Virus record (IMG/VR): IMGVR_UViG_3300034061_003581
Location: 1-41,416 of that record
Origin: a virus
Strand: one strand, 5' to 3'
Length of the DNA stretch: 41,416 nt
Positions 1,183-28,900 of the stretch are shown one piece after another (the first letter of the stretch is position 1; each line of letters opens with the position of its first letter). The position numbers were made by a program, and so were the translations under genes. The notes below the pieces were generated by a model. That model was not told the DNA's origin. It searched no databases and saw nothing but the letters and a program-made list of their open reading frames with translations.

Positions 1183-1839
1183 ATGAAACGAATTATTGTA
1201 TTATTACTATTAGTAGTGTCACCGATGCTTTGGGGGAAAGAATGGGTGATTAAGTTGGCAGTCAAGGATGTTCAGGTATTCTCATCAGATACACTACGCC
1301 ATCCAAGTTGGTATTCTGTAAAGTATAAATTGAGAAACATGGTTAATCTTTCATTCTTCACTACAAAGACGGTTGTTCCACCATTTAAGAATCACGATAA
1401 GATTTATCCTAATAATCCACATAACTGGCCATTTGTTTCCATTGATGATCCACACGAATGGGGTGTACCGAATCTAACACCACACTTACACTTCAGCGGT
1501 CAAAGTGAGGTGCCAGCGATATGGTCAAAATACATCTTTGCGGGAACGCCATTACTTCTTAAAGACAGTATACCACAAAAGATATATCGGAACTCATTTA
1601 CAACAGCCAGAAGGCCGAGAACGGTGTTTGGCAGTCATCATAAGGATAGTGTATTTATCTACATCAGTGACGGCATTCGAGTGGTAGATTTACCAAAAAG
1701 ATTATTGGAATTGGGTTGCCGTGATGCAATCAACATGGATGGTGGTGGTTCAACATTTTTATATCGTGGAAACAAATATGACTATGTACAAACGCCAATT
1801 AAAAAAATGAGGAAATATCCAAATGTTCTTGCTTGGTAG
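1183..1839 (+). CDS. Secreted phosphodiester glycosidase-domain protein (NAGPA/DUF2233-like)
   Basis: A 218-residue protein with an N-terminal signal peptide (K-R then ten hydrophobic residues, cleavage around residue 18). The rest fits the phosphodiester glycosidase family, whose founding member removes GlcNAc from a phosphodiester on the mannose-6-phosphate marker; bacterial members are linked to exopolysaccharide or wall-glycan processing. Visible family features are A-G-T-P-L-L-L (120-126), R-T-V-F-G (146-150), S-D-G (162-164) and the signature N-M-D-G-G-G-S-T (184-191). It is close to the minimum length for the domain. An AGGG ribosome site lies seven bases before the ATG and a Bacteroidota-type promoter precedes it. 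It likely acts in the periplasm or on the cell surface. A second copy of this domain sits in the tail protein at 16295-18493. Confidence 0.8.
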   Translation: MKRIIVLLLLVVSPMLWGKEWVIKLAVKDVQVFSSDTLRHPSWYSVKYKLRNMVNLSFFTTKTVVPPFKNHDKIYPNNPHNWPFVSIDDPHEWGVPNLTPHLHFSGQSEVPAIWSKYIFAGTPLLLKDSIPQKIYRNSFTTARRPRTVFGSHHKDSVFIYISDGIRVVDLPKRLLELGCRDAINMDGGGSTFLYRGNKYDYVQTPIKKMRKYPNVLAW

Positions 1840-2053: not shown

Positions 2054-2066
2054 ATGGTCGGTATGT
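2054..2066. repeat. Left arm of a 13-bp inverted repeat flanking the transglycosylase gene
   Basis: ATGGTCGGTATGT here is the exact reverse complement of ACATACCGACCAT at 2705-2717. The arm is G+C-rich for this genome. It lies about 70 bases before the start at 2137, within the predicted leader. Confidence 0.85.
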
Positions 2067-2136
2067 GTTTCAACCATATTGTTGGCAACAACAGAATGGT
2101 TCGTTAAATATATTATCCAATAATGAGGAAAGGAAT

Positions 2137-2643
2137 ATGACTAACAAATGTAAACGGGTTATAGCATTATTCTTAATTGGCTTCTGTTTTCCATTAGTAG
2201 CAATGACTACCACAGTTAATAGAAGTGCTGAAATTAAATCATCAACAATGAAGAATGTGTTATATTCATCTATCGTTTGGGTTGAGTCTAAAGGCAATGC
2301 AACCGCACGATCAAAGGATGGTTCACTTGGAATAGCTCAAATTTTACCGGTAATGGTGAAGGAAGTGAACCGAATCTGTAAAATGAAAGGAATCAATAAA
2401 ACTTTTACTTTACAAGATAGGCTAAATCCTGAAAAGTCTGAACAAATGTTTTGGATTTTTCAGAATTTTTACAATCCCAACATTAACTGGGAAACCATCA
2501 CAATGAGTGATATGGAAATCATTGCACGGAAGTGGAATGGCGGTCCTAACGGACACAAAAAGGGTGCTACTAAGCACTATTGGAATAAAGTTTCAAAAAT
2601 GGTCTACAAAGACCTTAAATCAAGGGGATTTATCACTGGTTAA
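2137..2643 (+). CDS. Secreted lytic transglycosylase-like (SLT) protein
   Basis: A protein of 168 residues with a signal peptide (basic T-N-K-C-K-R then a long hydrophobic stretch, cleavage near A22-M23). The mature part resembles the SLT domain that cleaves peptidoglycan between MurNAc and GlcNAc. The likely catalytic Glu is in W-V-E-S-K-G-N, followed by the usual S-L-G-I-A-Q-I-L-P block and a later A-R-K-W-N-G-G-P-N-G and H-Y-W-N-K-V. The start at 2137 is preferred over the open-frame start at 2065 because it follows GAGGAAAGG and begins the signal peptide. It has its own promoter and ends in a strong terminator, so it forms a single-gene unit. Lysis, or local wall opening, is the likely job; no holin is recognised next to it. 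Confidence 0.8.
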   Translation: MTNKCKRVIALFLIGFCFPLVAMTTTVNRSAEIKSSTMKNVLYSSIVWVESKGNATARSKDGSLGIAQILPVMVKEVNRICKMKGINKTFTLQDRLNPEKSEQMFWIFQNFYNPNINWETITMSDMEIIARKWNGGPNGHKKGATKHYWNKVSKMVYKDLKSRGFITG

Positions 2644-7063: not shown

Positions 7064-7969
7064 ATGAAACTCGGATATGCCTGCATCAACATGACTTTAT
7101 CAAAAGATAAAATCACTACCAACCGTTCCATGATTAAAAAAACATTTCTACAAAAAGGTTTAGACTACTGTTCTGAACTTGCATATATGAATGTTGTTGA
7201 TATGGAAAAAATTATCAAATGGAATGTTCAAAACGGTATTTACTTATTCCGCACATCTTCTAATGTATTTCCTTGGGGTTCTGAATATGACTTGGAACAA
7301 CTCAAAGATATTGATAAAATCAAGATTGTTCTCAAACGAATTGGTGATTATGCAAAAGAACATGGTGTTCGTCTATCATGTCATCCTGGACCCTTCAATG
7401 TTTTATGTTCACCAAATCCTAATGTTGTCAAGAATACTATAATTGACTTAGAATTGCACGGTAAAGTATTTGACATGATGGGACTATCACATACACCATA
7501 CAACAAAATCAATATACATTGTAACGGTGTCTATGGTGACAAGACCACATCACTTGATCGTTGGTGTCAAAACTTTCAATTACTATCCCACAGTGTTCGT
7601 TCAAGACTTACTATTGAGAATGATGATAAAGCAAGTATGTATTCTGTTAAAGACCTTATGAAAATTCACGAATGTTGTGGTATTCCTATTGTATTTGATT
7701 ATCACCATCACCAATTCTGCACCGGCGATTTGACTGAACAACAGGCACTTGAACTTGCCATATCAACATGGCCACAAGGTATTACACCTGCAGTTCATTA
7801 TTCTTCATCAAGACTTAAAGAGACTGGTAATCCAAAAGAAAAACCACAAGCTCATGCAGACTACATATTAGAAAAAATCAACACTTATGGACATGATATT
7901 GATATTATGTTAGAATGTAAAGCCAAAGAATTAGCTCTCAAACGATACCTAACAGAATACGGAATCTAA
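7064..7969 (+). CDS. uvsE: UV damage endonuclease (UvsE/UVDE family)
   Basis: A 301-residue TIM-barrel repair enzyme that nicks DNA 5' to UV photoproducts and other lesions. The metal ligands of the family can all be placed: H107 (S-C-H-P-G), H152 (N-I-H-C-N-G), E185 (T-I-E-N-D-D), D212 and H215 (F-D-Y-H-H), H245 (A-V-H-Y-S-S-S-R) and E284 (M-L-E-C-K). The order and spacing agree with the Thermus enzyme. The opening M-K-L-G-Y-A-C-I-N is typical. The position two residues before H245 is Ala, where the Thermus protein has a modified Lys. It has its own promoter and stands alone between the glycosyltransferase-like gene and the late-type box at 7990. Confidence 0.93.
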   Translation: MKLGYACINMTLSKDKITTNRSMIKKTFLQKGLDYCSELAYMNVVDMEKIIKWNVQNGIYLFRTSSNVFPWGSEYDLEQLKDIDKIKIVLKRIGDYAKEHGVRLSCHPGPFNVLCSPNPNVVKNTIIDLELHGKVFDMMGLSHTPYNKINIHCNGVYGDKTTSLDRWCQNFQLLSHSVRSRLTIENDDKASMYSVKDLMKIHECCGIPIVFDYHHHQFCTGDLTEQQALELAISTWPQGITPAVHYSSSRLKETGNPKEKPQAHADYILEKINTYGHDIDIMLECKAKELALKRYLTEYGI

Positions 7970-10897: not shown

Positions 10898-11260
10898 ATG
10901 AAATTTGATGAAGAAATCTTTGGAAGTAAAAAATTCTCTGATTTATTGAAAGATATTTACGATAATCAGAAGAAAAAGGATCGTCAGATAAATCTTTTGA
11001 TTGCTGACTTAAAGCCCATGTTAAACAACATAAGTGATGCGGCAATACTAGTTCCTGCAATAAAAGATTTTATGGAGGTTTCGGTAAAAAATGATGAACA
11101 TTTAGTAAAACTAGCCGCAGTAATACAACGGGCAATGGGTGATAAAGGTGAAGAATCCTCCTCATTTTTGACTGATGAAGAAAAAGAAGCTCTATTAAAG
11201 GGCATACAAGAAATTCAAAACGATCAAGAGGAGAATGATAGTGAGCGGCCTACCGTTTAA
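10898..11260 (+). CDS. Hypothetical helical protein
   Basis: A 120-residue charged protein, mostly helical by composition, with no membrane segment or signal. It starts M-K-F-D-E-E-I-F-G-S-K and ends in an acidic tail. No ribosome site is visible before the ATG; the gap from the previous stop is 11 bases and is filled with the TATTTATA box. The last 20 bases overlap the next gene. Family unknown; a small baseplate or chaperone-like protein is possible from its position just before the spike gene. Confidence 0.68.
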   Translation: MKFDEEIFGSKKFSDLLKDIYDNQKKKDRQINLLIADLKPMLNNISDAAILVPAIKDFMEVSVKNDEHLVKLAAVIQRAMGDKGEESSSFLTDEEKEALLKGIQEIQNDQEENDSERPTV

Positions 11261-12737
11261 TCCGCAAGTAACAATAATTGATGGGTTTCCTCGTGAGTGG
11301 TTTCCTGCGGAAGTATTGGATGTAGATTACGAAGGCCGTGATAAAACTGCACTATACACGGTATTATGTAGATTATTGGGTGCAATGGGACAAGGACATA
11401 AAGATGTTATACGTGCTCGTGCATTTGATGCTAATATAAAAAATATGCCAATTAGGGGAGAGGTTGTTATGCTTACAAAGGCACCGTCTCCTTATGCTAG
11501 TGCAGGTGGTGTTTCACAAGAATACTACTATACAAATCCTGTTTCTGTTCAATCATCAATTCATCATAACGGCATTCCTGGAGTAACTTACTGGGTAGAA
11601 AGAACTTCACCTGGTAATCGTGCAAAAAGAAATGATGCAGAAGATGGTATTCCACACGAAACCAATACAAAATTTGATACCCATACAACTATTGATCCAA
11701 TTTTTGTAGAAAGAAAAGACATTTATCCTATACAACCATATTCTGGCGATATACTACTCGAAGGTAGATGGGGACAATCTATAAGATTTGGATCAACATT
11801 GGATGAAAGAAGAAAATATCCACAAGTTCCAACTTGGAAAAAAGGTTTAGGTCAAATAGGTAATCCAATTTTAATAATTTCTAACGGAACAAATCCAGAA
11901 TTAAAACCAAGAAATGAATTTATCTTAGAAAATATAGATGAAGACGATTCATCTATTTGGATGACATCTGGACAATATGTAAAATTTGAACCCGCATCCA
12001 CATATACACCATCAATAACAGATAAAAGTATAAATCTTTTTACTAAAAATGAGTTTGGTGGAAATGCTGTAATGATTGCGTCTGATAGAATAATTTTTAA
12101 TTCTCGTAAGCAAGAATTGATTGGTTTTAGTAAAGAAGGTATTGGTTTTTCTTCTGAAAAGGGTATATCTCTTGACGGAAAACAAGTAGTTGAAATTGAA
12201 TCAACACAAAAAATATCGTTAGGTATAAATGCAATAGAACCGATATTGTTAGGCAAAAGAACAATGACGTGGTTAAATGATTTATGTCAAATACTATTGA
12301 ATGTTACACGAGCAATTACACAACAAACTCATCCAACTGGAACAGGTCCATCCGGTGTTCCTATAAACATTTCTGATTTTTCAACAGCACATTCTGATTT
12401 ATCAGAGTTACAAAGTCAAATAGAAAAATTACCAAGCCAATTAGCATTTGTTAATGAAAAGTCTGGTGGTCCATCAGAAAAAGAAGTTCAACAATCCAAC
12501 GAAAAAATTCTACAAAGTCAATTCATCAAAGAAGGCGATAATTCTAATTTGTTGGTAGATACCGGTGAGGGAGCGTTGGAAAATGAGGATCCATTAACAC
12601 TTGTTGCAGATATTGCTGATATTGAACAAGAAAAAATAAAACTAATAGATCAAATTTTAGGTGATATTGATCCAACATTTGATTATGGAACATCACTAGT
12701 CGGTGACGATGCCGGTAATCCTGGAGGACCAGTGTAA
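11241..12737 (+). CDS. Baseplate central spike/hub protein, gp5-like
   Basis: A 499-residue protein beginning M-S-G-L-P-F-N-P-Q if read from the GTG at 11241. AGGAG lies six to seven bases before this GTG but directly abuts the ATG at 11235, so the GTG is the better start. Key features are the OB-like first part (about 25-80, with I-R-G-E-V-V-M-L), the block Y-P-I-Q-P-Y-S-G-D-I-L-L-E-G-R-W-G-Q-S-I (about 161-180), and a later Gly/Ile/Ser beta-rich part (about 285-335) of the kind that follows the OB fold in gp5-type spikes. No lysozyme domain is seen, unlike T4 gp5. Enzymatic functions may be on the next proteins. The last 130 residues are helical and acidic. Confidence 0.65.
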   Translation: MSGLPFNPQVTIIDGFPREWFPAEVLDVDYEGRDKTALYTVLCRLLGAMGQGHKDVIRARAFDANIKNMPIRGEVVMLTKAPSPYASAGGVSQEYYYTNPVSVQSSIHHNGIPGVTYWVERTSPGNRAKRNDAEDGIPHETNTKFDTHTTIDPIFVERKDIYPIQPYSGDILLEGRWGQSIRFGSTLDERRKYPQVPTWKKGLGQIGNPILIISNGTNPELKPRNEFILENIDEDDSSIWMTSGQYVKFEPASTYTPSITDKSINLFTKNEFGGNAVMIASDRIIFNSRKQELIGFSKEGIGFSSEKGISLDGKQVVEIESTQKISLGINAIEPILLGKRTMTWLNDLCQILLNVTRAITQQTHPTGTGPSGVPINISDFSTAHSDLSELQSQIEKLPSQLAFVNEKSGGPSEKEVQQSNEKILQSQFIKEGDNSNLLVDTGEGALENEDPLTLVADIADIEQEKIKLIDQILGDIDPTFDYGTSLVGDDAGNPGGPV

Positions 12738-12739
12738 TT

Positions 12740-15700
12740 ATGGGTATATCGTGGAATAAAAATTTAGTAAAACTTATACCAGGTTCTGCAACAGAACCTG
12801 ATAAATACGAAATTGAAATTTTTCAAGGAGATACTATAAATCTTCTTGACTATGTTGTATTTGAACCAGGTGGAACAAAAAATGCTCTTAATACATGGAA
12901 ATTAACTCTTGTTAATGCGGCACACTTTACAGATAACGGACCAACAGATCCTGGAGATTTATCACAATTTAGCGATTCTTTTTATGATGATTCAGAAGTA
13001 ACACAATATGCTTCAAAGTATGCTTTAGATTGGAATGCAGAAATAAAACCAATACCATTATCTATTCCATCAATTATTATAGATAAATTTGGAATACTGG
13101 AAACATCAAGTGCTGTATTTAGAGTTGCAAGTGAAATTGAAGTTTGGGTAAATTTTGGAAAAAAAGTACCAGGAGATTTAATTTTAGATCCACCAGCGGG
13201 TAAACCAACCGATGAAATAAAAAAATTAACAATTAAAATAAAATCAAATTCATTTTTAGGTGAAGGTGGTTTATTAAATGGTGTAACAGGATCAATTGAT
13301 GCATTTGTTACAGATTCACTAAAATATGTAACAAGTGCTCTTACCGGTGTTGTTGGATTCTTAGGAGAGGGAGTTGCTTGGGGTATAAGTCAAGTTGAAG
13401 GTTTATATCCATCTGGATCTAAAGGTTACAATGAAGAAGATGCTAAACAAAAATTAGAAGAAGAAAAAGATAGAGAAGCAAGTCTTTTTTCAACAGTAAT
13501 TGGTTATCCATTTACTGCATTAGATTTTTTAACTAAAAAACAAAATGCTTCATTGATTAAATCCGGATTAAAGGCATTATCTACTTCCGCAAAAATATAT
13601 CAATTATATGCTCAAGGAAAATCTACAATAGCAACTACTAGACTTCTTGCAAATTTAAGAACATTACTTGATTACGAAAAATTATCACCAGGATTACAAA
13701 TAAAAGTTGCTAATTTTTTAGGAACTAACCCAAAAACTATTAAGCGAATAATATGGGTTGTTAATAAGATATTAGAAATAGAACAAATGGTAAGTGATGG
13801 TAACTATGACGCTTTACAAGATTATGTATTAAGAGAGGCAGAGAATGTAAAATCATTAGATGATTTACCCAAAGAATTGAGAGAATTTGCAACCGGTGAA
13901 GCATTTTCAGAATTGTCTCCAGGATCGGTTGTAAATAAAAAATTACAAATCGTTGATAAAGACAATCTAAAACTTATAGTAGAAAATCCATCATATAGAA
14001 AAACAGAAGGTAATAATATAGTTTTGAATCAAATTATTATTAAATCTATAAATAAAGAAGGAGATTTTATACCGATAAAGTCAATCTCTATTGGAAAAAT
14101 AACATCTCCTGGATTTGTAGACGGATTTACCGCAAATGAATTATTTTATGACTATAACACGACTAGAGATATTTGCACCATAACGATACCAAATACTTAT
14201 GGATCAGAAACTGGTGCGGATCCAATATCCTCAGGATTGTTTCCAAATGGTAGTATGGAACTTAAAATAAATGTAGATAACACAAAATATCAACAACAAT
14301 ACGAAGGAACTAACCCTATACGATCTGGTGTAATTCCATTTCAAATAGATTACAAATTTATCGGAAACAGCATACCAAGATTGGTTTATAGAAAATTCAA
14401 TGCCGCTACAAAAGTTTATGAAGAAGTCAATGAAGATTTACCACATATTTTAGACAGAGGCGAAGAAGTAACTGAAACGATTTCATACGATAATGTAATT
14501 CCTGGTTCTTGGGCAGAACAAAATTTTGGTCAAAATCCAATTACATTAGAACAAGGTTTTGATATTGCAAAAAATGGATTGGCAGTTTACAACTTATACA
14601 AAAAGAAACAATTTTTATCTATATTCGATGCTGTAGATTTCAAAAATTTACCAGCACCCGTTCAAACATTTATTTTTAGCACGGCTGCACTTATTGGAAT
14701 TGATGAATCCGAAATAATCAGATACTATGAAGTTTTAAGTGGTGCAAAAAATTTGTATGAATTATCAACAAAGGGATTTCAACATTACAATTCTTTACCA
14801 CCAGAATTAAAGGCAAAAATCTCAAAACAATTAGGTGTTAGTGAAGAAGTATTGGGTGATGTGATTCCGATTGCAGGCGATATAACTGATTTAATATCTG
14901 GAAAAAGATTTAATGGACCTGGTGAGAAAGAAAAATTTGCCGAAGGTTTATTTGATAAGGTTGGACAAAGTTTATTAAACAAATGGGGTCCAAATGCAGA
15001 AGTTTGGGAAAACTATAATGCATATGACAAAAAAACTGGAAAAGTAACTCCAGGTGGTGGAACCCTTGATCCAAAAATGAAGCAAACTATTGCACTTTCA
15101 TTAGGATTTACCAACATAAAAGAGGCACCAAAACCGCATAAAGATGATCCAGTTTCTGGAAAACCAATAACACACACAGAAGTAAATGGTCTTGCTATAA
15201 TAAAATGTGGAATTGCTATAGATAAAGCGTTAAAATTCAAAAATTCTCTTGCAAAAGGTATAAGTGTTAAAAACCGATTATTGCAAAAGTATGAACAAGT
15301 AAAAAATTCACCGAATTTAATTGAAGATGAGGCACTTTTAACAGGCGTTTACGATGAATTGGTAGATACTAGAGAAGACTTTGAAAAAGAAGATTTCTTC
15401 AATGACATATACGATTCTGCAAAAGAATTGACAGAGGATCCTTATGCTGATTTATTAGATTCTGCCGGTTCATTGCCTCCGGGAGTTCCTGGTGCTGGTG
15501 ATCCAAATTGGAGACAAAAATACAATGTTGAAGACCGATATGTAGTTGAAGATTCAACAGGAGCGCCTCCAAGTGGTGTGAAGGGTGTATTGCAATATGG
15601 TACATACATAATATACACTCATCCATGGATTGAAGATATTGGACAGAATCCTGAAACAGGCTTGCCTGTATTTACGGGAACGCCTCCATCTGGATTTTTA

Positions 15701-16294
15701 TTCAAACAATCTGATATAAATTGGGTAGTTGATGGTGATCCAAATGTAAGTGAATCACAAAGAAAAACTCTTGGATTGACAAAAGAATTGAAATACAGAT
15801 ATGCTTTTTCCAGCGGTGATTTTAATTTATTAGAACCGTTTAGGGTAACAAAATATCTTCGTGGATTGGCAAGACTTGGTGTATACAATTCAAGTGGTGG
15901 AAGTTTCAATGAAAAATACTTCACACCAGCATCTATATTGATTCAAAAAATTAAGACAGGTAATCCAAACTATCCAACAAAACAACAAAGACCTATTTAT
16001 ATCGGTGATGAATTAGTTCCACTTGAAGTTACGAATAAAACAACAATTCCTGGCGGAGCAACATTTGATGAAAACGGAAAACAAATAAATAATGCAGATG
16101 CTGTAGAAGTTAAAGTTGTTAGAAAGGCTGAAACACGAATAACACCGGCAGGTACACCACTCGGTCTTGAAGGTTCAAAAACTGATAGTGCAACTACATC
16201 AACTACAAAGACACCATTAAAATTTGGCGAAGGTGGTATAGCATACACTCCTTTACCAGTCCCAACAATTAAAATATCATTGGAGATAGGTTAA
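12740..16294 (+). CDS. Large unrecognised tail/baseplate protein
   Basis: A protein of 1184 residues with no family I recognise. The N-terminus (1-165) is beta-rich; residues 170-225 form a Gly-rich amphipathic stretch (S-F-L-G-E-G-G and V-V-G-F-L-G-E-G-V-A-W) that could be hydrophobic enough to touch a membrane. Three related helical modules can be seen around 283-346, 611-668 and 669-714, with a shared A..(I/V/L)Y.L start and an L.P....K....LG.....I core. The last 280 residues are beta-rich again. It lies two bases after the spike gene and abuts the LRR/glycosidase gene with no gap, so it is surely made with them. A tape-measure role is unlikely given its mixed fold and position within the baseplate block; a hub-associated role is more likely. 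Confidence 0.7.
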   Translation: MGISWNKNLVKLIPGSATEPDKYEIEIFQGDTINLLDYVVFEPGGTKNALNTWKLTLVNAAHFTDNGPTDPGDLSQFSDSFYDDSEVTQYASKYALDWNAEIKPIPLSIPSIIIDKFGILETSSAVFRVASEIEVWVNFGKKVPGDLILDPPAGKPTDEIKKLTIKIKSNSFLGEGGLLNGVTGSIDAFVTDSLKYVTSALTGVVGFLGEGVAWGISQVEGLYPSGSKGYNEEDAKQKLEEEKDREASLFSTVIGYPFTALDFLTKKQNASLIKSGLKALSTSAKIYQLYAQGKSTIATTRLLANLRTLLDYEKLSPGLQIKVANFLGTNPKTIKRIIWVVNKILEIEQMVSDGNYDALQDYVLREAENVKSLDDLPKELREFATGEAFSELSPGSVVNKKLQIVDKDNLKLIVENPSYRKTEGNNIVLNQIIIKSINKEGDFIPIKSISIGKITSPGFVDGFTANELFYDYNTTRDICTITIPNTYGSETGADPISSGLFPNGSMELKINVDNTKYQQQYEGTNPIRSGVIPFQIDYKFIGNSIPRLVYRKFNAATKVYEEVNEDLPHILDRGEEVTETISYDNVIPGSWAEQNFGQNPITLEQGFDIAKNGLAVYNLYKKKQFLSIFDAVDFKNLPAPVQTFIFSTAALIGIDESEIIRYYEVLSGAKNLYELSTKGFQHYNSLPPELKAKISKQLGVSEEVLGDVIPIAGDITDLISGKRFNGPGEKEKFAEGLFDKVGQSLLNKWGPNAEVWENYNAYDKKTGKVTPGGGTLDPKMKQTIALSLGFTNIKEAPKPHKDDPVSGKPITHTEVNGLAIIKCGIAIDKALKFKNSLAKGISVKNRLLQKYEQVKNSPNLIEDEALLTGVYDELVDTREDFEKEDFFNDIYDSAKELTEDPYADLLDSAGSLPPGVPGAGDPNWRQKYNVEDRYVVEDSTGAPPSGVKGVLQYGTYIIYTHPWIEDIGQNPETGLPVFTGTPPSGFLFKQSDINWVVDGDPNVSESQRKTLGLTKELKYRYAFSSGDFNLLEPFRVTKYLRGLARLGVYNSSGGSFNEKYFTPASILIQKIKTGNPNYPTKQQRPIYIGDELVPLEVTNKTTIPGGATFDENGKQINNADAVEVKVVRKAETRITPAGTPLGLEGSKTDSATTSTTKTPLKFGEGGIAYTPLPVPTIKISLEIG

Positions 16295-18493
16295 ATGGCA
16301 AAGGTTACATTTGAATTTGATAATGAAGGGTATATCAATGTTCGTGGTGAAAAATACTCTGCACTTGAAATAGTAAATGATGCAGGTGATACTGCATTGG
16401 ATTGGATGTTAGCATCTGATAATGCTGAATTAGTTGCACTTGCAAGTACATGGGGATTGACTCCAGATAAAGATGATAAAACTGGATCGGTAGAAGAAAA
16501 ACCTGCAGATGATCCTGAAAATGAAGGAAATGTAGATGAGGCAGTTGATAAGTCTGATACAGGTAGTGGTGGATTATCCAATGAAGAAATTACAAGTTTA
16601 ACTGATAAACTTAATATATTGTTTGGGTATAAAGTTGTTAAAGGTGTTGTTCAAAAAGATAAAAATGGAAAACCAGTTATAGCAAACCAAAAGGCCGCCA
16701 TTAAAATTACAGGTGGTGCTGAACCAAAAATACAAGCAGACGGAACCATTGATATTGCAGGTGATGTTACCATAAATTTAGTTTCAGGGAATAAATCATT
16801 ACCGTCTGTAAAAGATGGTAAATTTACTGTAAAATTTGGAATTATTGGTGGTAATTTTATATGTAGAAGTGTAAAACTTTCATCACTCGAAGGTGGTCCT
16901 AAAAAAGTCAATGGTCAATTTGATATTTCAAAAAATGAATTAACTTCATTAGTTGGTTCTCCAAATGAAGTTGGTAGTTTTTTTGCTACTGATAATAAAA
17001 AATTAACATCATTGGCAGGTGGACCAAAAATAATAAAGGGAATAACTGATACAAATAAAAGTCAAAAAGAATATATCTATGATGTATCTGGTTGTGGATT
17101 AACAACATTAGAAGGAAATGGAATAACTTCTTTTGGTCCAGGCGGATTTAATTGTGGTGGTAATAAGATTACAAGTTTAGCAGGTTTGGGTGTTGTTACT
17201 TCAACTGGTGTAACACGATTTGATTGTTCTAACAATCAATTAACATCATTGAATGGAATACCAAAACCTATAAAAGATGTAAAAACCGGTAGACCTGGTA
17301 ACTATTGGATAAGCAATAACATTCAAATAACAGTATTTCCTGTTAATATGGCAGATTTTGAAGTTGATGGCTTTGTTGCAAGTGGGTTATCATTAACATC
17401 ACTTTCTTTTGCACCAAAACAAATATATGGAGATTTTGACTGTTCTGGCAATAAAGGTGCAAAAAAACTTACAAATCAAAGTATTGGTAAGGACAGGTTT
17501 GTATCTGGCGGTGGATTTGAAGCTGATGCTGGAAATCGTATTGTAAAAATAGATGGTGAATTTATTACAAGTGAAGGATCATGGAAAGATAAAACTTATG
17601 ATGTTAATACAACATTTAAGAAATCCGAAACACAAACACAATCAGGACTTGCAGGGCTAGCTCCATTAGGTTCTGGATCAATAGGTGGTGTTGAATATAT
17701 TGAAAATCCAACTAAAAAATTAAGTTCTGGTAAACCATCTAGACTTTGGTTACAAAAATTCAATCCATCCAATTTGAGAGCTGGTTATACTGCACCAAAA
17801 GCAGTTGGCAAAAATCAAATTGGAGAAAACAAATATCCATTTGGTTCAAAAAACACAGGTGGTTGGGTTGCAGCCGGATTCAAAAATTTCATAAATGCAG
17901 GACCATTTGAAGGATCTACTAATCCAACGTGGGGTTCGGGACAACCAAATGGTTTATTTATAGTTGATGGGAAAAATTATGGATCAAAATTGGCAGAGGC
18001 AAAAAATCTAAATAGTAACAATTCTGATATGCGATTTTTACCAATGGTTGTTGTTAAACCAAATCCTAACATAATATCAGATGGGTATGCAACAGAGGTA
18101 AGACCAGGTTCAACTGATGGCATACTTAAAAAAGGATGGGGTAATATACAAGTTGGAATACCGATGTATAACATTTGTATACGAAATAATGCAGTAAAAG
18201 ATGTTCATGCATCATTCAAAAAGCATTCTGGATGGCCGTTTATTGGAATACTTGGATCTGGAATGTGGTTTGCTGGTGCAACAGATATGGATGGTCCAAG
18301 AACATCAACTACTAGTTGGAATATACCAGAAATTTCAAATGCAGTTTTGAATCATTTTAATAAAAAAGGTGATACTGTAACAATTATGTCAGGCGGTGAT
18401 GGCGGAGGATCAACAAAACTTGTTGTCAATGGACAACTAGTTGGAGGATCTTTGGCAGAAAATAGAGCAGTTCCAACTATTTTAGCGTGGTAA
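16295..18493 (+). CDS. Leucine-rich repeat protein with C-terminal phosphodiester glycosidase domain
   Basis: A 732-residue protein with three parts. Residues 1-58 are a small module, F-E-F-D-N-E-G-Y-I-N-V to A-S-T-W-G-L-T-P-D, also found in the next protein. After an acidic linker, residues 190-390 hold leucine-rich repeats of about 21 residues built on L-T-S-L-x-G-x-P and N-N-Q-L-T-S-L. Residues 485-732 follow the phosphodiester glycosidase pattern: F-I-N-A-G-P-F (531-537), N-G-L-F-I-V-D-G-K (552-560), R669, and G-D-G-G-G-S-T (701-707), with the closing I-L-A-W. The secreted protein at 1183 ends similarly (V-L-A-W). It is likely a virion enzyme that cuts a surface polymer, with the repeats for binding. 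The start codon follows directly on the previous stop. Confidence 0.78.
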   Translation: MAKVTFEFDNEGYINVRGEKYSALEIVNDAGDTALDWMLASDNAELVALASTWGLTPDKDDKTGSVEEKPADDPENEGNVDEAVDKSDTGSGGLSNEEITSLTDKLNILFGYKVVKGVVQKDKNGKPVIANQKAAIKITGGAEPKIQADGTIDIAGDVTINLVSGNKSLPSVKDGKFTVKFGIIGGNFICRSVKLSSLEGGPKKVNGQFDISKNELTSLVGSPNEVGSFFATDNKKLTSLAGGPKIIKGITDTNKSQKEYIYDVSGCGLTTLEGNGITSFGPGGFNCGGNKITSLAGLGVVTSTGVTRFDCSNNQLTSLNGIPKPIKDVKTGRPGNYWISNNIQITVFPVNMADFEVDGFVASGLSLTSLSFAPKQIYGDFDCSGNKGAKKLTNQSIGKDRFVSGGGFEADAGNRIVKIDGEFITSEGSWKDKTYDVNTTFKKSETQTQSGLAGLAPLGSGSIGGVEYIENPTKKLSSGKPSRLWLQKFNPSNLRAGYTAPKAVGKNQIGENKYPFGSKNTGGWVAAGFKNFINAGPFEGSTNPTWGSGQPNGLFIVDGKNYGSKLAEAKNLNSNNSDMRFLPMVVVKPNPNIISDGYATEVRPGSTDGILKKGWGNIQVGIPMYNICIRNNAVKDVHASFKKHSGWPFIGILGSGMWFAGATDMDGPRTSTTSWNIPEISNAVLNHFNKKGDTVTIMSGGDGGGSTKLVVNGQLVGGSLAENRAVPTILAW

Positions 18494-18517: not shown

Positions 18518-21067
18518 ATGCCAAGAACAGTAAATGATATAGAACAAGATAGTGCTCCTGATATTAGGGTTGCTAGACGTGCACTGAATAGCAATTTACA
18601 GGATAACACTAAAATTGATAGAGTTTCTGATGAAGTAAAAGATGATCAATCTAATAAAAGAACTGATGATGATGGTGGTCAAGATAAATCAAAAAATCCA
18701 GATAGTGTTTTCTATAAAGGAGACGATAATACATCTGAAGGTAATGACAGTTCTGGTGGAAATGATGATAGTTCTGATGATGAAAACTTAGGTAATTTTG
18801 TCAGAGATTTATTCGGAGATAAAAAAGATGATGATGAGGAAATTGAAAAACCCGCTGATAGGGGACCAACAAATGAAGAACTTGATAACGAAGAACCCGG
18901 TGGCAACGAACAATCAGGCGAAGAAGCCAATGAAGAAAGAACAGGACAATTTGGTTCAAATGTCAATTCCGGTGATGACAATACAAACGATCCACAAAAA
19001 CAAGATGAAAAAGTTAGTATAAATTTCTCCCGAAGAAATAGAAGTAAAGGTGTTACAGTAACATATAATGGTGTAACATATCAGGTAGATACAAAGGGAA
19101 CCGAATCTGATGTTGATATGGGTGGTTTACAAGAATGGTTAGATGATACATTTACTATTGGATCAACTGTAATAAATCTTTCTGAATTTTCAAGTAAGTC
19201 TGATTCTGAAAAATTAGAAATTGTTAAAAATGCTTTGGGTGAATCTGGTACACCAACAACTCCACCATCTGGAAAAAAATACAATGCTAATGGACTAGCT
19301 TGGTTTGTAAAAAGAGATTCTAAATATGGTGCCCGTGTTAGTATAGCCGATCCAGATGACACGAAAAAAAGTATATTTTTTGATGATACCGGCAATATAA
19401 CGGTGAAAGATGTAACGTATACGGCAAAAGAAGTATTTTATGAAAACGAATCTGCAGTTGCTTGGTTAAAAAAACAAGTTGATGATACAAAATCAGAGGA
19501 ATTGGCAGCACTTTATGCAGGATGGGGCTTTACACCAGATGCACCGCCGGCTGATATACCGAAAGATGAAAACCCAGCAACAAATCCTGATGATCCTGAG
19601 AAAAAATTTGAACCAAAATTAAAAGAAAATACAACACCAGAAGGTGCACCAACAAATGTAGAAAATAGTGCTGCACTTACAACTGGAAAATTAAGAGAAC
19701 TTAATGGTAAAATTGTTGCTCCTGGTGCAAGTATCAATATGTGGGCATCACATATAGATTACAAAGTGCCAAAATATCCAACATCAACTGGATATTATGG
19801 TATTCGTGATCAAAAAGCAAAAACAGATGGATTGGGATTCGCAAAAGACGAATACAATATCGAAACAAAACTTGTTGGTGCTGTAAAAGTTTATTTTAAT
19901 GCTCAATGGGAAAAGTTAATATCCGGTACTCCAATTCCTGTTGCAAAAAAATCTGAAGATCTAAATTTAATAGATTATCCAATAATAATGAATTTTACAG
20001 AAGTTGGTGTTTGGAATAAAAAAGTTCCTTATGTTGCTGATACACAAACAGAACAACATAGAATGTTATACAAAGGTTATAGTGGTGGGAGGTATAATAT
20101 GGATAAATGGGGGATAGGATCTTACGGTGCCGGTGAAAATAAAGGTGGATTTGCCAATTGGTCTGAACAACCACACTGGTGTGGTATATTTACACAACAT
20201 TGTATAAGTCATGGTGGATATACTTTTCCAGGAGAACCTGTTGGTTTAGCTGCTGCTAATAAAATTAACGATGTATATTTTAATTCTTCACTTAAAAAAT
20301 TAAAAGAAGTAGGATTAGAAGAAGCAAGTGAATGTTTTGCCAATGTTCCAACTTATTTGGATTCTGCTGGCAAAAGTATTCCAGTTAAAAAGTTTTTGGA
20401 TAAAAAGGGATTTGGTGTAAAAGGTGGAAAAAGTGATTATTTTACAGATGTATATGGTATTCTTTTAGAAAGTGCAACTTATTCAGAGACAACTGAAACA
20501 GAAGTTGTTATGATTCCAGATGGTAATAAATTAAAACCAAAAAAGAAAACAAAAGTAAATAGAGAAAAAATACCTGTTGCAGTTCGAGAATCATTATTAC
20601 CAAATCCAATAATGGTATACTTTATAGGTGGTATTCATTTTACAAAAGATGGATTAACTTCACAAGGAAAAAAATTATTAGAACATTTTTTATCACAAAG
20701 AGGGTGGGAAGTTTCTATAATAAGTCGTGGTGGACACATTGAAGTTTGTCCTTATATTAACCCTGATGGCACTATCGCTCGTTTTGGAGGAAACACTGGT
20801 GCAAGTTCATTTGTTAGTAGAGACGGTGGAAAATTTGCTGCAAAAGGTAGTTCAATATGGGCTTTTAGTGGTGGTGCAAAAGCTGGAACATTTGTTGTAT
20901 TTACAAAAGTTGTTCCAAAGGCTGGATCTCAAAAAGTTGAACCAACAATGAACGGACAATTCAGAAGAACGCCGATTGTTGATAGTTATTATAGAAGCAT
21001 AGATAACAAAACCATATTACCAACATTAAAAAACGTTTTATATGATCAAATTGTTGAAAAAGAATAA
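18518..21067 (+). CDS. Tail protein with CHAP-like amidase/endopeptidase domain
   Basis: An 849-residue protein. Residues 1-165 are acidic, low-complexity and probably disordered. Residues about 166-235 and 284-341 are two versions of the small module also at the start of the previous protein; the second ends E-E-L-A-A-L-Y-A-G-W-G-F-T-P-D. The last 310 residues hold a CHAP-like pattern: P-H-W-C555-G-I-F-T-Q-H as the nucleophile helix, R-G-G-H740-I-E-V as the His strand, and later D-G-T-I-A-R-F-G-G-N-T-G, like the closing GN.G of CHAP. The Cys-to-His distance (185 residues) is much longer than usual, with an insertion in between (roughly 595-690). CHAP domains cut peptidoglycan amide bonds, so it could open the wall during infection. 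It follows the LRR/glycosidase gene by 24 bases. Confidence 0.68.
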   Translation: MPRTVNDIEQDSAPDIRVARRALNSNLQDNTKIDRVSDEVKDDQSNKRTDDDGGQDKSKNPDSVFYKGDDNTSEGNDSSGGNDDSSDDENLGNFVRDLFGDKKDDDEEIEKPADRGPTNEELDNEEPGGNEQSGEEANEERTGQFGSNVNSGDDNTNDPQKQDEKVSINFSRRNRSKGVTVTYNGVTYQVDTKGTESDVDMGGLQEWLDDTFTIGSTVINLSEFSSKSDSEKLEIVKNALGESGTPTTPPSGKKYNANGLAWFVKRDSKYGARVSIADPDDTKKSIFFDDTGNITVKDVTYTAKEVFYENESAVAWLKKQVDDTKSEELAALYAGWGFTPDAPPADIPKDENPATNPDDPEKKFEPKLKENTTPEGAPTNVENSAALTTGKLRELNGKIVAPGASINMWASHIDYKVPKYPTSTGYYGIRDQKAKTDGLGFAKDEYNIETKLVGAVKVYFNAQWEKLISGTPIPVAKKSEDLNLIDYPIIMNFTEVGVWNKKVPYVADTQTEQHRMLYKGYSGGRYNMDKWGIGSYGAGENKGGFANWSEQPHWCGIFTQHCISHGGYTFPGEPVGLAAANKINDVYFNSSLKKLKEVGLEEASECFANVPTYLDSAGKSIPVKKFLDKKGFGVKGGKSDYFTDVYGILLESATYSETTETEVVMIPDGNKLKPKKKTKVNREKIPVAVRESLLPNPIMVYFIGGIHFTKDGLTSQGKKLLEHFLSQRGWEVSIISRGGHIEVCPYINPDGTIARFGGNTGASSFVSRDGGKFAAKGSSIWAFSGGAKAGTFVVFTKVVPKAGSQKVEPTMNGQFRRTPIVDSYYRSIDNKTILPTLKNVLYDQIVEKE

Positions 21068-21079
21068 GGAGTTTTTAGT

Positions 21080-21508
21080 ATGAACACGAAGAATTTTTTT
21101 ACTAAAATAAGAGAAATAATTAGAGAAGAAATTGAATATGCTCTTGAAAAGAAAATATCTCAAAAGCAAACAAAAAAAGATGATATTTCTGCATTAAAAC
21201 ATGGTCTATCTATGTATAATGAATCACAATCAACGAAAAAAGTAGTAAAACCAAAACAACAAAAAAGTGAATTTGGTTCTATAAAAGAATTGTTAGCAGA
21301 AACAAAAAGAAGTCTTCAAGACAGTTATGAAATGGAAGATGAATTTAGCTTTACTGCAGATATGGCAGAAGGATTTGGAAATGAAAGAGTAGGATCGGCT
21401 ATTCCAAATGGCTACAATAAAACAGAAATACCTAACGAAGTAATGAGTGCACTTACAAGAGATTATTCTGAACTTATGAAAAAAATTGATGAAAAAAAAG
21501 GGAGATAA
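21080..21508 (+). CDS. Hypothetical protein, charged helical
   Basis: A 142-residue protein rich in Lys and Glu, with a helical N-terminal third (K-I-R-E-I-I-R-E-E-I-E-Y) and a less ordered second half. It has no membrane segment. AAGGAG stands nine bases before the ATG, and the stop is three bases before the gp25-like gene's TTG. I do not recognise the family. From its position it is probably a small baseplate component or assembly protein. Confidence 0.68.
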   Translation: MNTKNFFTKIREIIREEIEYALEKKISQKQTKKDDISALKHGLSMYNESQSTKKVVKPKQQKSEFGSIKELLAETKRSLQDSYEMEDEFSFTADMAEGFGNERVGSAIPNGYNKTEIPNEVMSALTRDYSELMKKIDEKKGR

Positions 21509-21511
21509 TAA

Positions 21512-22021
21512 TTGAGACCACTTTCAAGATCTGAAAATAGAATAAATTATTTTCAAAAACCTATAAACGAAGGAAACGCCACACAAGGTAACAAATTTGT
21601 TGGTGTAACATTGCCTTTTAATAATCCAAAGGGTATTTTCTTTCAAAGTAGAACAAATGTAAAACAGTTGTTTTCAAATGTGAGAAACTTGTTATTAACA
21701 ACAAGAGGTGAGAGATATATGATTCCTGATTTTGGAACAAATCTAAAAAATATATTGTTTGAAAACATAACAAGCGAAGATCAATTTTTAGAAAGTATAA
21801 AATCAGATATTGTAGAGGCATTAAATACATGGATGCCTTTTTTAACAATAGAAAAATTAACAGTTAATATAAATCCAGATACATCAAATTTAGCCGAAAA
21901 TGATCATGCGATACAAATAGATTTAACTCTAAAACTTCGAGAAACAACAATATATTTACCAATAAGACTATTTATATCTACAATAGGTAGAATTGAAATT
22001 GCGGCAATAGAGCCGCGGTGA
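21512..22021 (+). CDS. Baseplate wedge protein, gp25-like
   Basis: A 169-residue protein of the GPW/gp25 family, a structural baseplate subunit that connects to the sheath and is related to a lysozyme-like fold. The signature is L-L-T-T-R-G-E-R-Y-M-I-P-D-F-G-T-N-L (61-78) followed by I-L-F-E-N. The start is TTG at 21512, with GGAG seven bases upstream; no ATG is near that position. It precedes the gp6-like gene, an order that is common in contractile phages. Length agrees with the family, with a modest N-terminal extension. Confidence 0.93.
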   Translation: MRPLSRSENRINYFQKPINEGNATQGNKFVGVTLPFNNPKGIFFQSRTNVKQLFSNVRNLLLTTRGERYMIPDFGTNLKNILFENITSEDQFLESIKSDIVEALNTWMPFLTIEKLTVNINPDTSNLAENDHAIQIDLTLKLRETTIYLPIRLFISTIGRIEIAAIEPR

Positions 22022-22038
22022 AAATATAGGTGATAAAA

Positions 22039-23928
22039 ATGGCTTTAATCCAAAAAGATATTCGTTATTCAAATAGAGATTTCAATTCATTAAAAAAATC
22101 TTTGATAGATTTTTCCAAAAATTATTTTCCAGATACATACCAAGATTTCAATGAAACCTCACCGGGAATGTTATTTTTGGAAATGGCAGCTTATGTTGGG
22201 GATGTTTTGTCATTTTATACAGATGTTACACTACAAGAATCAATGATTCTGTTTGCTAATGAACGTCAAAATATACTTAACATTGCACATTCTCTCGGTT
22301 ATGCACCAAAAAATAGGGTTGCAGCAAATACCGTATTAGATGTTTTTCAAGTTGTTCCTGCAAAAAAAGTAGGTCTTGAAATAGTTCCAGATTATGATTA
22401 TGCAATGGCAATAGAACCTGGAATGCGTGTATCACCAACAACCGATGGAACAATTACATTCAGAACAATAGATTATATTGATTTTAAGTCTAGTAGTAGT
22501 TTTGATTCAACAGAAGTAACTCCATATGAAATAGATAATACAACGGGAGAAGTTACATTTTGGCTTCTGAGAAAACAAGCGAAAGCTATTTCCGGAACAA
22601 TTAGATCTTCAACATTTAGTGCGGGTGATCCAAAACCATACGATAAATTTACAATAGAAGAAACGGATATAATAGAAATACTCTATGCAATAGATACAGA
22701 AGGAAACAAATGGGAACACGTTCCTAATTTGGCACAAGATACTGTATTTGAACCGGTGTTAAACATACCAAGAAATGATTCACAATTAAGTAAATATAGA
22801 TCAGAAACACCATACTTACTTAAATTGAGAAGAGTTCCTAGACGATTTACTTCAAGACAGATGGCAAATGGAAATGTGGAAATACAGTTTGGTGCGGGAA
22901 TCAGTGATGTAGATGATGAATTGTTAATTCCAAATCCAGATTTAGTCGGTGGTGCTTTGCCTATGACAAATCCAAATTTATCGATAAACATAGATCCTTC
23001 AAACTTTTTGTATACAAAAACATATGGTCTTGCACCAAACAATACAACATTGACATTCTTCTATACAATCGGTGGTGGAACCGAAGACAATGTTCCAAGT
23101 GAAGTATTAAATAATGTTTTGAATAGAATAGTAATTTTAGATTCAACTGGATTGGATCCAGTGTTATATGGTCAAATTGTATCCAGTTTGGCTGTAACAA
23201 ACCCAAGACCTGCAACAGGTGGTAAATTTCAAGAAGATATACAAGAGATTAGACAAAATGCCGTTGCTTCTTTTGCTGCACAAAATCGTGCAGTTACAAA
23301 AGAAGATTACATAATCCGTGCTTATAGTCTACCATCAAAGTATGGTTCTATTGCAAAGGCATATATTACGAAAGATACTCAATTAACGAAGGATTCTATA
23401 TTCAATAGTGATAGAGTTCAAAACGATTTAGCTCTAAACTTTTATGTTCTTGGTTATGACGTAAACGGTAAACTTACAACAGTAAACAATGCTACAAAGG
23501 AAAATCTAAAAAATTATTTGAATTGGTATAGAATACTAACAGATGCAATTAACATTAGAGATGCTTATATTATCAATGTAGGCGTAAATTTTGACATAAT
23601 AACTTTACCTGATCAAAATTCAAACCAAGTTGTTCTTCGTTGTATTGAAAGATTGAAACAATACTTTGATGTAAACAAATGGCAAATAAATCAACCGATT
23701 GCAATAAGCAACATATACACAGAATTAGATAGGGTTCCTGGTGTTCAAACTGTTGTAAATGTTAAAATTAGAAATTTATCTGATACGAACTTGGGTTACT
23801 CTCCTCATGCCTATAACATAGAACAAGCAACAAAAGATGGTGTTTTGTTCCCGTCATTAGATCCATCTATTTTTGAAATAAAATATCCAAACAATGATAT
23901 TGTTGGTAGAGCGAGGTCATTCGGATGA
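22039..23928 (+). CDS. Baseplate wedge protein, gp6-like (Baseplate_J family)
   Basis: A protein of 629 residues starting M-A-L-I-Q-K-D-I-R-Y-S-N-R-D-F. The N-terminal block E-T-S-P-G-M-L-F-L-E-M-A-A-Y-V-G-D-V-L-S is typical of gp6/J proteins, as are A-V-T-K-E-D-Y near residue 420 and the long beta-rich middle. Gp6 dimers make the wedge ring that ties the baseplate together. The start at 22039 is favoured over the GTG at 22030 because AGGTGA sits five bases before it and the N-terminus matches relatives. The last four bases overlap the start of the next gene. Confidence 0.92.
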   Translation: MALIQKDIRYSNRDFNSLKKSLIDFSKNYFPDTYQDFNETSPGMLFLEMAAYVGDVLSFYTDVTLQESMILFANERQNILNIAHSLGYAPKNRVAANTVLDVFQVVPAKKVGLEIVPDYDYAMAIEPGMRVSPTTDGTITFRTIDYIDFKSSSSFDSTEVTPYEIDNTTGEVTFWLLRKQAKAISGTIRSSTFSAGDPKPYDKFTIEETDIIEILYAIDTEGNKWEHVPNLAQDTVFEPVLNIPRNDSQLSKYRSETPYLLKLRRVPRRFTSRQMANGNVEIQFGAGISDVDDELLIPNPDLVGGALPMTNPNLSINIDPSNFLYTKTYGLAPNNTTLTFFYTIGGGTEDNVPSEVLNNVLNRIVILDSTGLDPVLYGQIVSSLAVTNPRPATGGKFQEDIQEIRQNAVASFAAQNRAVTKEDYIIRAYSLPSKYGSIAKAYITKDTQLTKDSIFNSDRVQNDLALNFYVLGYDVNGKLTTVNNATKENLKNYLNWYRILTDAINIRDAYIINVGVNFDIITLPDQNSNQVVLRCIERLKQYFDVNKWQINQPIAISNIYTELDRVPGVQTVVNVKIRNLSDTNLGYSPHAYNIEQATKDGVLFPSLDPSIFEIKYPNNDIVGRARSFG

Positions 23929-25906: not shown

Positions 25907-28900
25907 ATGCCAAGTTTTTTATACAAAAATTTACTTGATATAGTAAGAACAAATCGTCCTATTAGGGGCGATAGGTATGACTATTCAAATTTTGCTAACA
26001 GCATTATTGTTCCAAAATTTTCTACATTAAATAATCCCGAAGATCCTTCTTCTCCGGGAACAAATGTAGAACTTCATATATTTTTGCCTAATTTTTCTTA
26101 TGTAGATACATTACATAATGCAAATTATGAAATAGATCCTCGTATAACAGAATCCGGTGATCCGTTACGGTATGTTGTATTACCTATACATAACCATATA
26201 AAACAATTAAATTTAGTTCCTGGACCATATAAGTTTGTTTACAACTTTTTTAGAGATTTAATTGGTTCTGCTGAAAATGAAAATAGATTGTTTGTTTCAG
26301 ACATTTCACAAGACAGACGAGAATTAAGATTAACTTTAACAAATCCAACTGATATAGAATCTTTGGAAAATTTAAGTAGTTTTGTTCTTGAATATATGAG
26401 GGGATCAAAATATAAACTACCAATAGTTCTAAATTTTGGCGAGAATAATTTAGTTGATGTGATAAATGTTACATCCGATGGAAACCCTACATATTTTTAT
26501 GTTCGTATTGCAGAACCGTTAGATACTGATGTTGATTTGTATTATCAATGTTGGCTTTCAAGTCAAATAATGAAGCCGTATATTGATTCAGTTCAAGTGG
26601 AAAAAGAGTTTGAAACACTATCACCAAAATTTATTAAAGGTCCAAATTACGAAGTTGAATATGAAAATTTCATTTCTGCAACAACAGAATATAAAAATTG
26701 GAATGATATTTTATCAACAAATTTACAAACATCACAACAAATACTTGATAAATACTTAACATCTTCTGGATCAAAAGTAGAATTAAACTATAATTTTACA
26801 GATTTTTCAAATTTTGTATTCTATTCATCAGCAGAAGAAAGAGTTGAAAATTTTTACTATAAAATGCGTTTAATTCAGCATTACAACAATCAACTTGCTG
26901 ATTTAGAATCATACACGGGTTCATTGGATTTGAACAAAACAAAAGTAAAAATGTTAAGAGAATCGGTTGTTTCTGGTTTTGATGAATTTGAAAAGTGGTT
27001 ATACTATGAAACAACTGCAAGTTTAAGATATACAAGTGAACTTACTGCATCAATACAACCATTTCCAAAATACGAAGTAACTGGAAGCACTTATCATATA
27101 TTAACAAGACAAGGTAAATTTAATTTATATTCAAGTTCAAGTATTCAAGTAGAAGAATGGTATAACACTGTTTTAGATGTAGCAACCGATTTTGATATGG
27201 TAAATGATTCTGCGTTGATTAAATCACTACCGGAACATATATTTGATAATCCCGATAATGAACAAATACTTACATTTGTAAACATGATTGGTCAGCACTT
27301 TGACATTTTATATTTTTATACTGACCACATATTAAAAAAGAATTTAAGAGAAGAACACCCAAAAGACGGGTTATCACAAGACCTTATTTATGAAGCAACA
27401 CGAAATTTAGGTTGGACTCTTTCTAGTGGAACAAGAACAAAAGATTTATGGGAATATGCATTAGGTGTAAGTGGTAGTGGTGAACCAATTTGGGCAGGAA
27501 GAAATACGGTAGGCAAAGAACATTCAAAAAGTGAAGAAGAAAGAACAAAAGAAGTTTGGCGTAGAGTATTGAACAATTTGCCTTACATTTACAAATCAAA
27601 GGGAACTGCTAGAGGTGTTAAGGCACTATTATCTGCTTATGGTATTCCACAAACACTATTAACTATTAGAGAATTTGGTGGACCGGATAATGCGGATTTG
27701 GGTGTTGTTCCTAGAGCAGAATGGGAAAAACATACATATTATTTGAATTTAGTTGGTAGTTTACAACAACCACCTACATCTAGTTATGTCAGATTGCCTT
27801 GGGAAAGAATTAACAATGAAAATAATCAGTGGCAATATCCAGATACACTAACTTTTAGATGGAAAATGAATCCATCACAGTTGTATCGTTATGAAAATAA
27901 CGAATTACAAACTGTTTTACAAAAAGAAACAACTGGTAGTAGATTGGATTGGTATGTTACTGTTCATAGAACTGGATCTGCAGAAAAAGGTGATTTGACT
28001 TTTTATTTGGGAGATGGGACAAGTTACAAATCTGCATCTATAAAAGACGAATATCTATATGATGATGTTCCATTGAACATAATGATTCGTAGAAATGAAT
28101 CAACTGATACACTTTCGTCTGATAATACATACGATTTTATATTAAAAACTTCAAAGTATGGAAAAATTGTAGTTGAGAGAAGTGCAAGTATTTCAATAAC
28201 GGGATCAATAGAATCAAATTACAACAATGCTTGGTCATCTGATGGATATTTATACATAGGTTCGGGATCAAATCCTCAAACTAATAAAATGTTATCGGGA
28301 TCTATTTTTGAATTGAGATATTGGGCAAAACCTTTAATAGAATCTTCTTTCAATAATCATGTAATGGGTGCCCGTGCATATAACGGTAACACATCAACAT
28401 CATCATTTTATGATTTACAAGCACAATGGAAATTTTGGCAACCTTTTAATGCTGAATTAACTTCCAGTATAAAAAGTATGCATCCCGATCAAACAAAATT
28501 TAATTTCTTCACTTCACCAAAGAATGCTTACTTCAATGGATTTAGTAGAGATTTGTTTGAATCAACCGTTGAAGTTTACAATATGGAAGTTGCAACTGTT
28601 GCAAATAATACACCATTCTCCGAAAAAATTAGGATAGATTCTGCATCACTTCAAGGATCTTTAACAAAAGATAGATCATCAACAGTAACTGCATTTGATA
28701 ATTTTTCAATAGATTCAAATAAGTTAATGGTTGCATTTTCGCCACAACACATAATAAATGAAGACATATATGAATCAATAGGTAATGCTGTAATAGATGA
28801 TTATTTTGGTGAATACGAAAATACAAAAAGAGACGAATATCCAAGATTAAAACAATTTGCAAGAGAGTATTGGAAAAAATATACAAATAGAAATGATTTT

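Follow-up and report, generated by a model that had tools for sequence, protein, structure and literature searches.

An exchangeable domain with a predicted phosphodiester glycosidase fold at the wall-hydrolase position of an environmental phage

Introduction

The phosphodiester glycosidase (NAGPA) type of sugar-phosphate-cutting fold is familiar from the human lysosome and is also known in bacteria, and the cleavage of sugar phosphodiesters is not, to our knowledge, among the activities usually listed for phage tail enzymes. In phages, domains of this family (PF09992; DUF2233) have previously been annotated or predicted, both in proteins of the tail block and in endolysins. Orf92 of Lactobacillus phage LP65, which lies in a baseplate block, matches PF09992 above cut-off at 67.2 bits, and the Staphylococcus phage protein vB_SscM-1_048, annotated as NAGPA, does so at 81.6 bits and adjoins one putative tail fibre gene in otherwise non-structural surroundings. 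Depolymerases of Curtobacterium prophages (cluster 2) have been predicted to adopt the NAGPA fold by superposition on 6PKU (PMC9862828), gut-phage endolysins with a CHAP-NAGPA-SH3_3 arrangement have been counted (PMC13284279), and NAGPA occurs with NlpC/p60 in Bacillota conflict proteins (PMC12419801). With the first four of these as candidate precedents, the statement of a first-pass annotation of the DNA studied here, that no virion enzyme of this class had been described, is too strong.

Here we describe a 732-aa protein encoded in the tail region of an environmental phage, within a stretch of 41,416 nt analysed as a whole (the window, to which its coordinates refer). It resembles the LP65 and Staphylococcus phage proteins in being a phage protein with a NAGPA domain, down to a motif (INAGPFE, against VNAGLFN in LP65), and differs from them in that they belong to phages of Gram-positive hosts, have no Pfam leucine-rich repeats (LRR) and carry a domain well above the Pfam cut-off. 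The predicted Curtobacterium depolymerases differ as products of Gram-positive prophages, for which the excerpted text of PMC9862828 makes no mention of exchange with peptidoglycan hydrolases. The CHAP-NAGPA-SH3_3 proteins share the combination of NAGPA with a peptidoglycan hydrolase, being endolysins rather than tail-region proteins (excerpts of PMC13284279). Across the NAGPA-family literature, in a broader search with thin coverage of subscription journals, we found no account of a baseplate slot in which such a domain is exchanged with peptidoglycan hydrolases, nor of a fusion to LRR.

Results

Architecture and position of the 732-aa protein

The protein consists of an N-terminal module, an acidic linker, an LRR part and a C-terminal domain (hereafter C-domain; Table 1). 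This open reading frame, which starts with ATG, lies exactly where the first-pass annotation had placed it, and the small N-terminal module and sequence marks named there are likewise borne out: residues 5–115 resemble a stretch of the protein encoded immediately downstream (window 19370–19720; 33% identity, E = 2.4e-7), and FINAGPF, NGLFIVDG and GDGGGST start at residues 532, 552 and 701, the last containing Asp702, with an Arg at 724. Its 21-residue leucine-rich repeats hold in part. Six L[TS][ST]L repeats start between residues 195 and 367, against a mean of 0.036 and a maximum of 2 in 2000 shuffles of residues 130–440, a motif count by which the LRR part is genuine; exact 21-residue spacing is confined to the first three, and Pfam LRR_4 stays under its cut-off (19.3 versus 27 bits). 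Hydropathy gives no hydrophobic N-terminus. The gene lies in the baseplate block, as had been proposed, upstream of genes for gp25-like and gp6-like wedge proteins.

Elsewhere the window encodes a UV-endonuclease UvdE (7064–7969; PF03851, 204.5 bits), here phage-encoded, and, near its right end, a protein with a laminin-G/concanavalin-like lectin domain (38839–40578; PF13385, 53.4 bits). Three very large proteins of 1184, 1344 and 1368 aa (12740–16294, 25907–29941 and 33007–37113) have no PHROG match at E ≤ 0.1.

Table 1 Features of the window discussed in the text
Feature	Coordinates	Strand	Evidence
Second NAGPA protein, 218 aa, hydrophobic at its N-terminus, with canonical RT and DGGGST	1183..1839	+	PF09992, 56.8 bits (cut-off 25)
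SLT transglycosylase adjoining second NAGPA gene, possible lysis region	2065..2643	+	PF01464, 28.8 bits (cut-off 21.3)
500-aa conserved protein, left edge of variable slot	11235..12737	+	Comparison of relatives' loci
1184-aa slot protein	12740..16294	+	No PHROG or Pfam match
732-aa tail-region protein	16295..18493	+	ATG start; N-module, acidic linker, LRR, predicted NAGPA-fold C-domain
N-terminal module (about residues 1–60)	16295..16474	+	Resembles part of adjoining 849-aa protein
Leucine-rich repeats (about residues 195–390)	16877..17464	+	Repeat count versus shuffles; kept in relatives
NAGPA-fold domain as modelled (residues 434–732; N534, D702–S706, R724)	17594..18490	+	AlphaFold2, Foldseek, VIA alignment, hhalign
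Exchanged cassette	17600..18493	+	DNA identity, window versus close relative L019
849-aa slot protein with N-module-like stretch	18518..21067	+	W-C-G and G-H-x-E invariant in relatives
142-aa protein, right edge of slot	21080..21508	+	Comparison of relatives' loci
gp25-like baseplate wedge protein	21512..22021	+	PHROG, E = 3e-12
gp6-like baseplate wedge protein	22030..23928	+	E = 1.2e-22

Predicted NAGPA fold of the C-domain

Direct sequence searches gave faint signals. PF09992 reached 13.7 bits against a curated cut-off of 25 (E = 0.074, residues 702–730 only), and no direct scan of the 732-aa protein, whether with Pfam, NCBIfam or PHROG, made a significant NAGPA call. Among PDB sequences, phmmer with the whole protein picked up nothing but designed LRR proteins, all weakly matched, and a profile of the window family had just two NAGPA hits, both weak (E = 0.095 and 0.17). 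Pfam alone being negative, we gathered relatives via the gp6-like gene (176 found, 80 kept), taking C-domain homologues among their open reading frames by phmmer and further ones by an alignment-based scan. The resulting alignment of 15 sequences (A2, the window's own included) served as input for a template-free AlphaFold2 model of the C-domain (pLDDT 78.8, pTM 0.81).

With this model Foldseek retrieved 15 PDB chains at E ≤ 1e-3, every one a member of the NAGPA family: 12 bear the name NAGPA or DUF2233, and the remaining three (5h3k, 6ozd), named as hypothetical or exported proteins, match the canonical NAGPA profile (E = 1.4e-8 and 2.7e-11, respectively). VIA alignment, whose candidates were Foldseek's own, so that missing other folds prove nothing there, gave Z 20.1 to guinea pig NAGPA (6pku_B; 219 residues, 3.0 Å), 19.8 to Bacteroides 3ohg and 18.8 to Synechocystis 5h3k, the best unrelated chain reaching Z 3.4. 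Profile–profile comparison by hhalign with a canonical set of eight sequences (four phage, four bacterial) returned 96.4% with E = 1.2e-9 over 161 columns, and a protein in contig G010 forms a bridge, the same stretch being matched by the window-family profile (28.3 bits) and, above cut-off, by PF09992 (33.1 bits). Where Pfam alone failed, profile–profile comparison and structure thus establish the NAGPA fold of the C-domain, a modelled fold that we regard as secure, and in its light we read the weak sequence matches as divergence. The first-pass assignment to PF09992 accordingly stands on the profile–profile comparison, the G010 bridge and the predicted structure, in which Asp702 is in place, and not on the direct Pfam scan.

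The likeness to NAGPA structures (among them 6pku and 3ohg) covers about 220 residues at Z about 20 and extends to the Asn, Asp-Gly-Gly-Gly-Ser and Arg positions, at a structural-alignment identity of 11–19%. As to the right-handed β-helix of tail depolymerases, the model speaks for the C-domain only, which has the NAGPA fold. BFVD structure matches include phage proteins named phosphodiester glycosidase, and others named CHAP, autolysin, PlyB-like or N-acetylmuramidase.

A partial active-site signature

Ten columns are invariant in the eight canonical sequences (N, R, T, G, D, G, G, G, S and R), and the 732-aa protein keeps eight of them: N534, G651, D702-G-G-G-S706 and R724. The other two, the Arg-Thr pair of the PRTaxG motif found in 8/8 canonical sequences, are replaced by Trp-Pro in the stretch WPFIG, and the pair occurs in none of the 15 aligned sequences, the window's included. 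The catalytic residues to which the first-pass annotation had pointed are therefore present for Asp702 (with N534, DGGGS and R724) and absent for this pair. Besides lacking it, the protein is set apart from members of the family by its LRR part and its phage tail context. Two accepted phage NAGPA members keep the R and lack the T.

Within A2, the N, D, S and R are invariant in 15/15 sequences, and DGGGS is kept in eight, with DGSASR in three and DPGGSY in four. The seven altered sequences (L024, L027, L030, L031, L043, L072 and L124) leave the Asp and Ser unchanged; a shift of chemistry or a loss of catalysis is possible in them. Lys565, invariant in all 15, is a candidate substitute for the Arg-Thr pair. 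As the pair is missing throughout and DGGGS has drifted in 7/15, catalysis or its chemistry may differ from that of canonical members; judged by the residues retained, catalysis by the C-domain is likely but not certain.

The variable slot and its occupants

The gene lies in a variable slot, defined in relatives as the genes between the 500-aa protein and the 142-aa/gp25-like pair. No known family was found for the 500-aa protein and it is not identifiable as a hub protein, so the 'hub' position of the 732-aa protein is one that we infer from neighbouring genes. The slot yielded 65 distinct open reading frames of at least 150 aa, 63 from gp6 loci and two from Microcystis phage Mel-JY01. At E ≤ 1e-3 the profile of A2, that of A3 or both recognise 15 of these, of which 12 belong to A2 and the L058 protein to A3 by construction; the other two are a truncated version of the 732-aa protein and one nearly identical to an A2 member.

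Pfam was run on chosen slot proteins among the 65, including two sets of ten. Peptidase_M15_4 exceeded its cut-off in eight of the first set and CHAP in one, the tenth having none, and GH19 matches in four proteins fell under the cut-off. In the second set one protein, from L043, exceeded a cut-off, that of Phage_lysozyme (75.3 bits), and narrowly missed the one for VanY; the other nine had no match above cut-off. An N-terminal part in L119, taken by eye for an M15 peptidase, had nothing above the Pfam cut-off and hence is not counted. The 849-aa neighbour was considered as a CHAP/NlpC-like (Cys-His) peptidase; since PDB sequence searches gave no support and its model reached a pLDDT of only 37.6, we make no peptidase claim for it.

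Several occupants bear directly on the C-domain. In L029 the same LRR scaffold ends in Phage_lysozyme instead (33.9 bits versus a cut-off of 22.3), an exchange with a lysozyme. L058 joins NAGPA (65.7 bits) to an N-terminal part common to the M15 slot proteins (residues 29–373, best E = 7.8e-87). A protein of L135 (1489–3129, minus strand) is a fusion of two domains that each exceed the cut-off, Phage_lysozyme2 (60.3 bits) and NAGPA (49.4 bits), on a contig that also encodes the signal-bearing NAGPA, and L161 (5441–9250, minus strand) has an open frame of 1270 codons with a NAGPA end, followed by 142-aa and gp25-like homologues. The L135 and G010 proteins lie in the same slot, as homologues of the 142-aa protein (E = 1.7e-43 or better) and the gp25-like protein (E = 2.2e-39 or better) come next. 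The Mel-JY01 slot protein, annotated as a putative chitinase, is homologous to the GH19-like part and has no Pfam match; the 41.9 kb searched of that phage has no match to the LRR part.

With lysozymes, M15 peptidases and CHAP in the slot of relatives, some of them fused to NAGPA, the NAGPA domain of the window sits where wall hydrolases sit in those relatives. In the 732-aa protein itself Pfam finds no peptidoglycan-cleaving domain, only LRR_4 and NAGPA, both under cut-off. Its likeness to tail-associated peptidoglycan hydrolases of the hub lysozyme type is thus one of gene slot beside baseplate genes, and the GH19-like plus M15 proteins of L045 and others, the L058 and L135 proteins and the GH19-like protein of Mel-JY01 occupy the same slot beside the gp25-like gene; these differ from it in their N-terminal parts, and in L058 and L135 the NAGPA domain is canonical.

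Exchange of the C-domain between close relatives

The close relative L019 has a gp6-like protein 97.6% identical to that of the window, and a slot protein whose N-module, linker and LRR part are 94–97% identical in amino acids, against 35% for the C-domain. In 50-base steps, DNA identity is 78–88% before 17600, 48–80% to 18499 and 88–98% after 18500, both edges being sharp and the right one falling just past the stop codon of the 732-aa gene. The exchanged unit is the whole C-terminal domain. That close relatives differ in this way points to a target that varies, which would suit a surface polymer equally well.

A second NAGPA gene, and relatives in other records

Relatives of the 218-aa NAGPA protein were found at 15 loci (83–100% identity, one partial), and Mel-JY01 has a homologue at 30.5% identity. 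PF09992 exceeds its cut-off in 6/11 related records and 9/13 others, counts that are no survey because many loci were chosen through the 218-aa gene itself: those nine, plus G002 and G009 of the six, came via loci found with it. With its signal-like N-terminus, the 218-aa protein probably acts on the same type of bond at lysis.

The C-domain occurs at 100% identity in six IMG/VR contigs. Searches for it among 50,697 phage records gave a single match, at chance level (E = 6); plasmids had no match at E ≤ 1, a peptide-pattern scan of genome contigs had none, and a scan of genome contigs for the L058 NAGPA domain was also empty; the whole 732-aa protein matches six phage records, mostly via the LRR part. 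By gp6 the nearest cultured relative is Mel-JY01 (68.4%), which carries a NAGPA gene and on which a literature search found no paper; Flavobacterium phage immuto is more distant (43.6%) and has no PF09992 match. The psbA and NblA families were found in 0/11 records, mostly fragments, a control cyanobacterium being positive for both. Shine-Dalgarno-like motifs precede 18/33 selected starts when a permissive motif list is applied with no shuffle control.

Discussion

The reading that we prefer, and to which we give an even chance, is that the 732-aa protein is a cell-envelope hydrolase of the tail tip (baseplate-hub slot) that carries an exchangeable NAGPA cassette and serves in crossing the wall. 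As a putative virion component, it would be docked to the tail by its N-terminal module, and the LRR part would act as a conserved scaffold or spacer. The C-domain would hydrolyse sugar-1-phosphate diester bonds in polymers on or around peptidoglycan of the presumed host, letting the tail cross the wall during infection; as an exchangeable cassette, it would replace, or in relatives be fused to, lysozymes and peptidases. A candidate substrate is the sugar-phosphodiester link described for cyanobacteria between wall polysaccharide and C6 of muramic acid. Our literature searches for this link did not find it, nor does the excerpted text of PMC12482097 contain it.

The first-pass annotation had envisaged attack on surface polymers. 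We retain its sugar-phosphodiester cleavage as a predicted activity and favour a wall-crossing enzyme at the tail tip, which fits better because several of the alternative slot occupants are peptidoglycan hydrolases. A depolymerase that strips capsule, sheath or LPS-like sugar-phosphodiester polymers at adsorption, and so sets host range, we consider unlikely: host-range modules typically show cassette exchange of the kind seen here among close relatives, NAGPA-fold depolymerases are predicted in Curtobacterium prophages (PMC9862828) and LP65 orf92 lies within a baseplate block, yet the slot of relatives often holds peptidoglycan hydrolases, and one copy of the very same LRR scaffold, in L029, ends in a lysozyme.

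That interchange with lysozyme also speaks against the C-domain being a non-catalytic, lectin-like descendant of NAGPA that binds sugar phosphates for attachment, as do the retention of N534, D702-G-G-G-S706 and R724 in the window copy and the fact that Asn, Asp, Ser and Arg do not vary across the 15-sequence alignment. We hold such a binder to be distinctly improbable, even with the Arg-Thr pair lost in 15/15, DGGGS drifted in 7/15 and a fusion to LRR, a common binding scaffold. Very improbable is a late-expressed helper of lysis or virion release outside the virion, as might be suggested by the second NAGPA gene, with its hydrophobic N-terminus, next to an SLT gene and by the CHAP-NAGPA-SH3_3 endolysins of gut phages (PMC13284279), since the 732-aa protein has no hydrophobic N-terminus, is encoded among baseplate genes and shares its N-module-like stretch with the next slot protein.

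The wall-crossing hydrolase could be extended, in a speculation that we ourselves think distinctly improbable, to a matched pair of phosphodiester glycosidases. One would work at the tail tip, the other be secreted at lysis, and both would free wall polysaccharides from peptidoglycan through cleavage of a link of the GlcNAc-1-phosphate-6-muramic-acid type, the tail cassette swapping fast and its active site diversifying with the wall polymer of the host. Such a pair would parallel, on the bacterial side, the uncovering reaction of lysosomes.

A conserved slot in which a NAGPA fold replaces or joins lysozymes and peptidases is a natural experiment, and it predicts a substrate in the cell wall. 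If active, these domains would offer tools for releasing wall polysaccharides and might be a possible determinant of host range among environmental relatives of a Microcystis phage. The NAGPA fold in a wall-hydrolase slot hints at a route through the cell envelope that has received little attention in phages.
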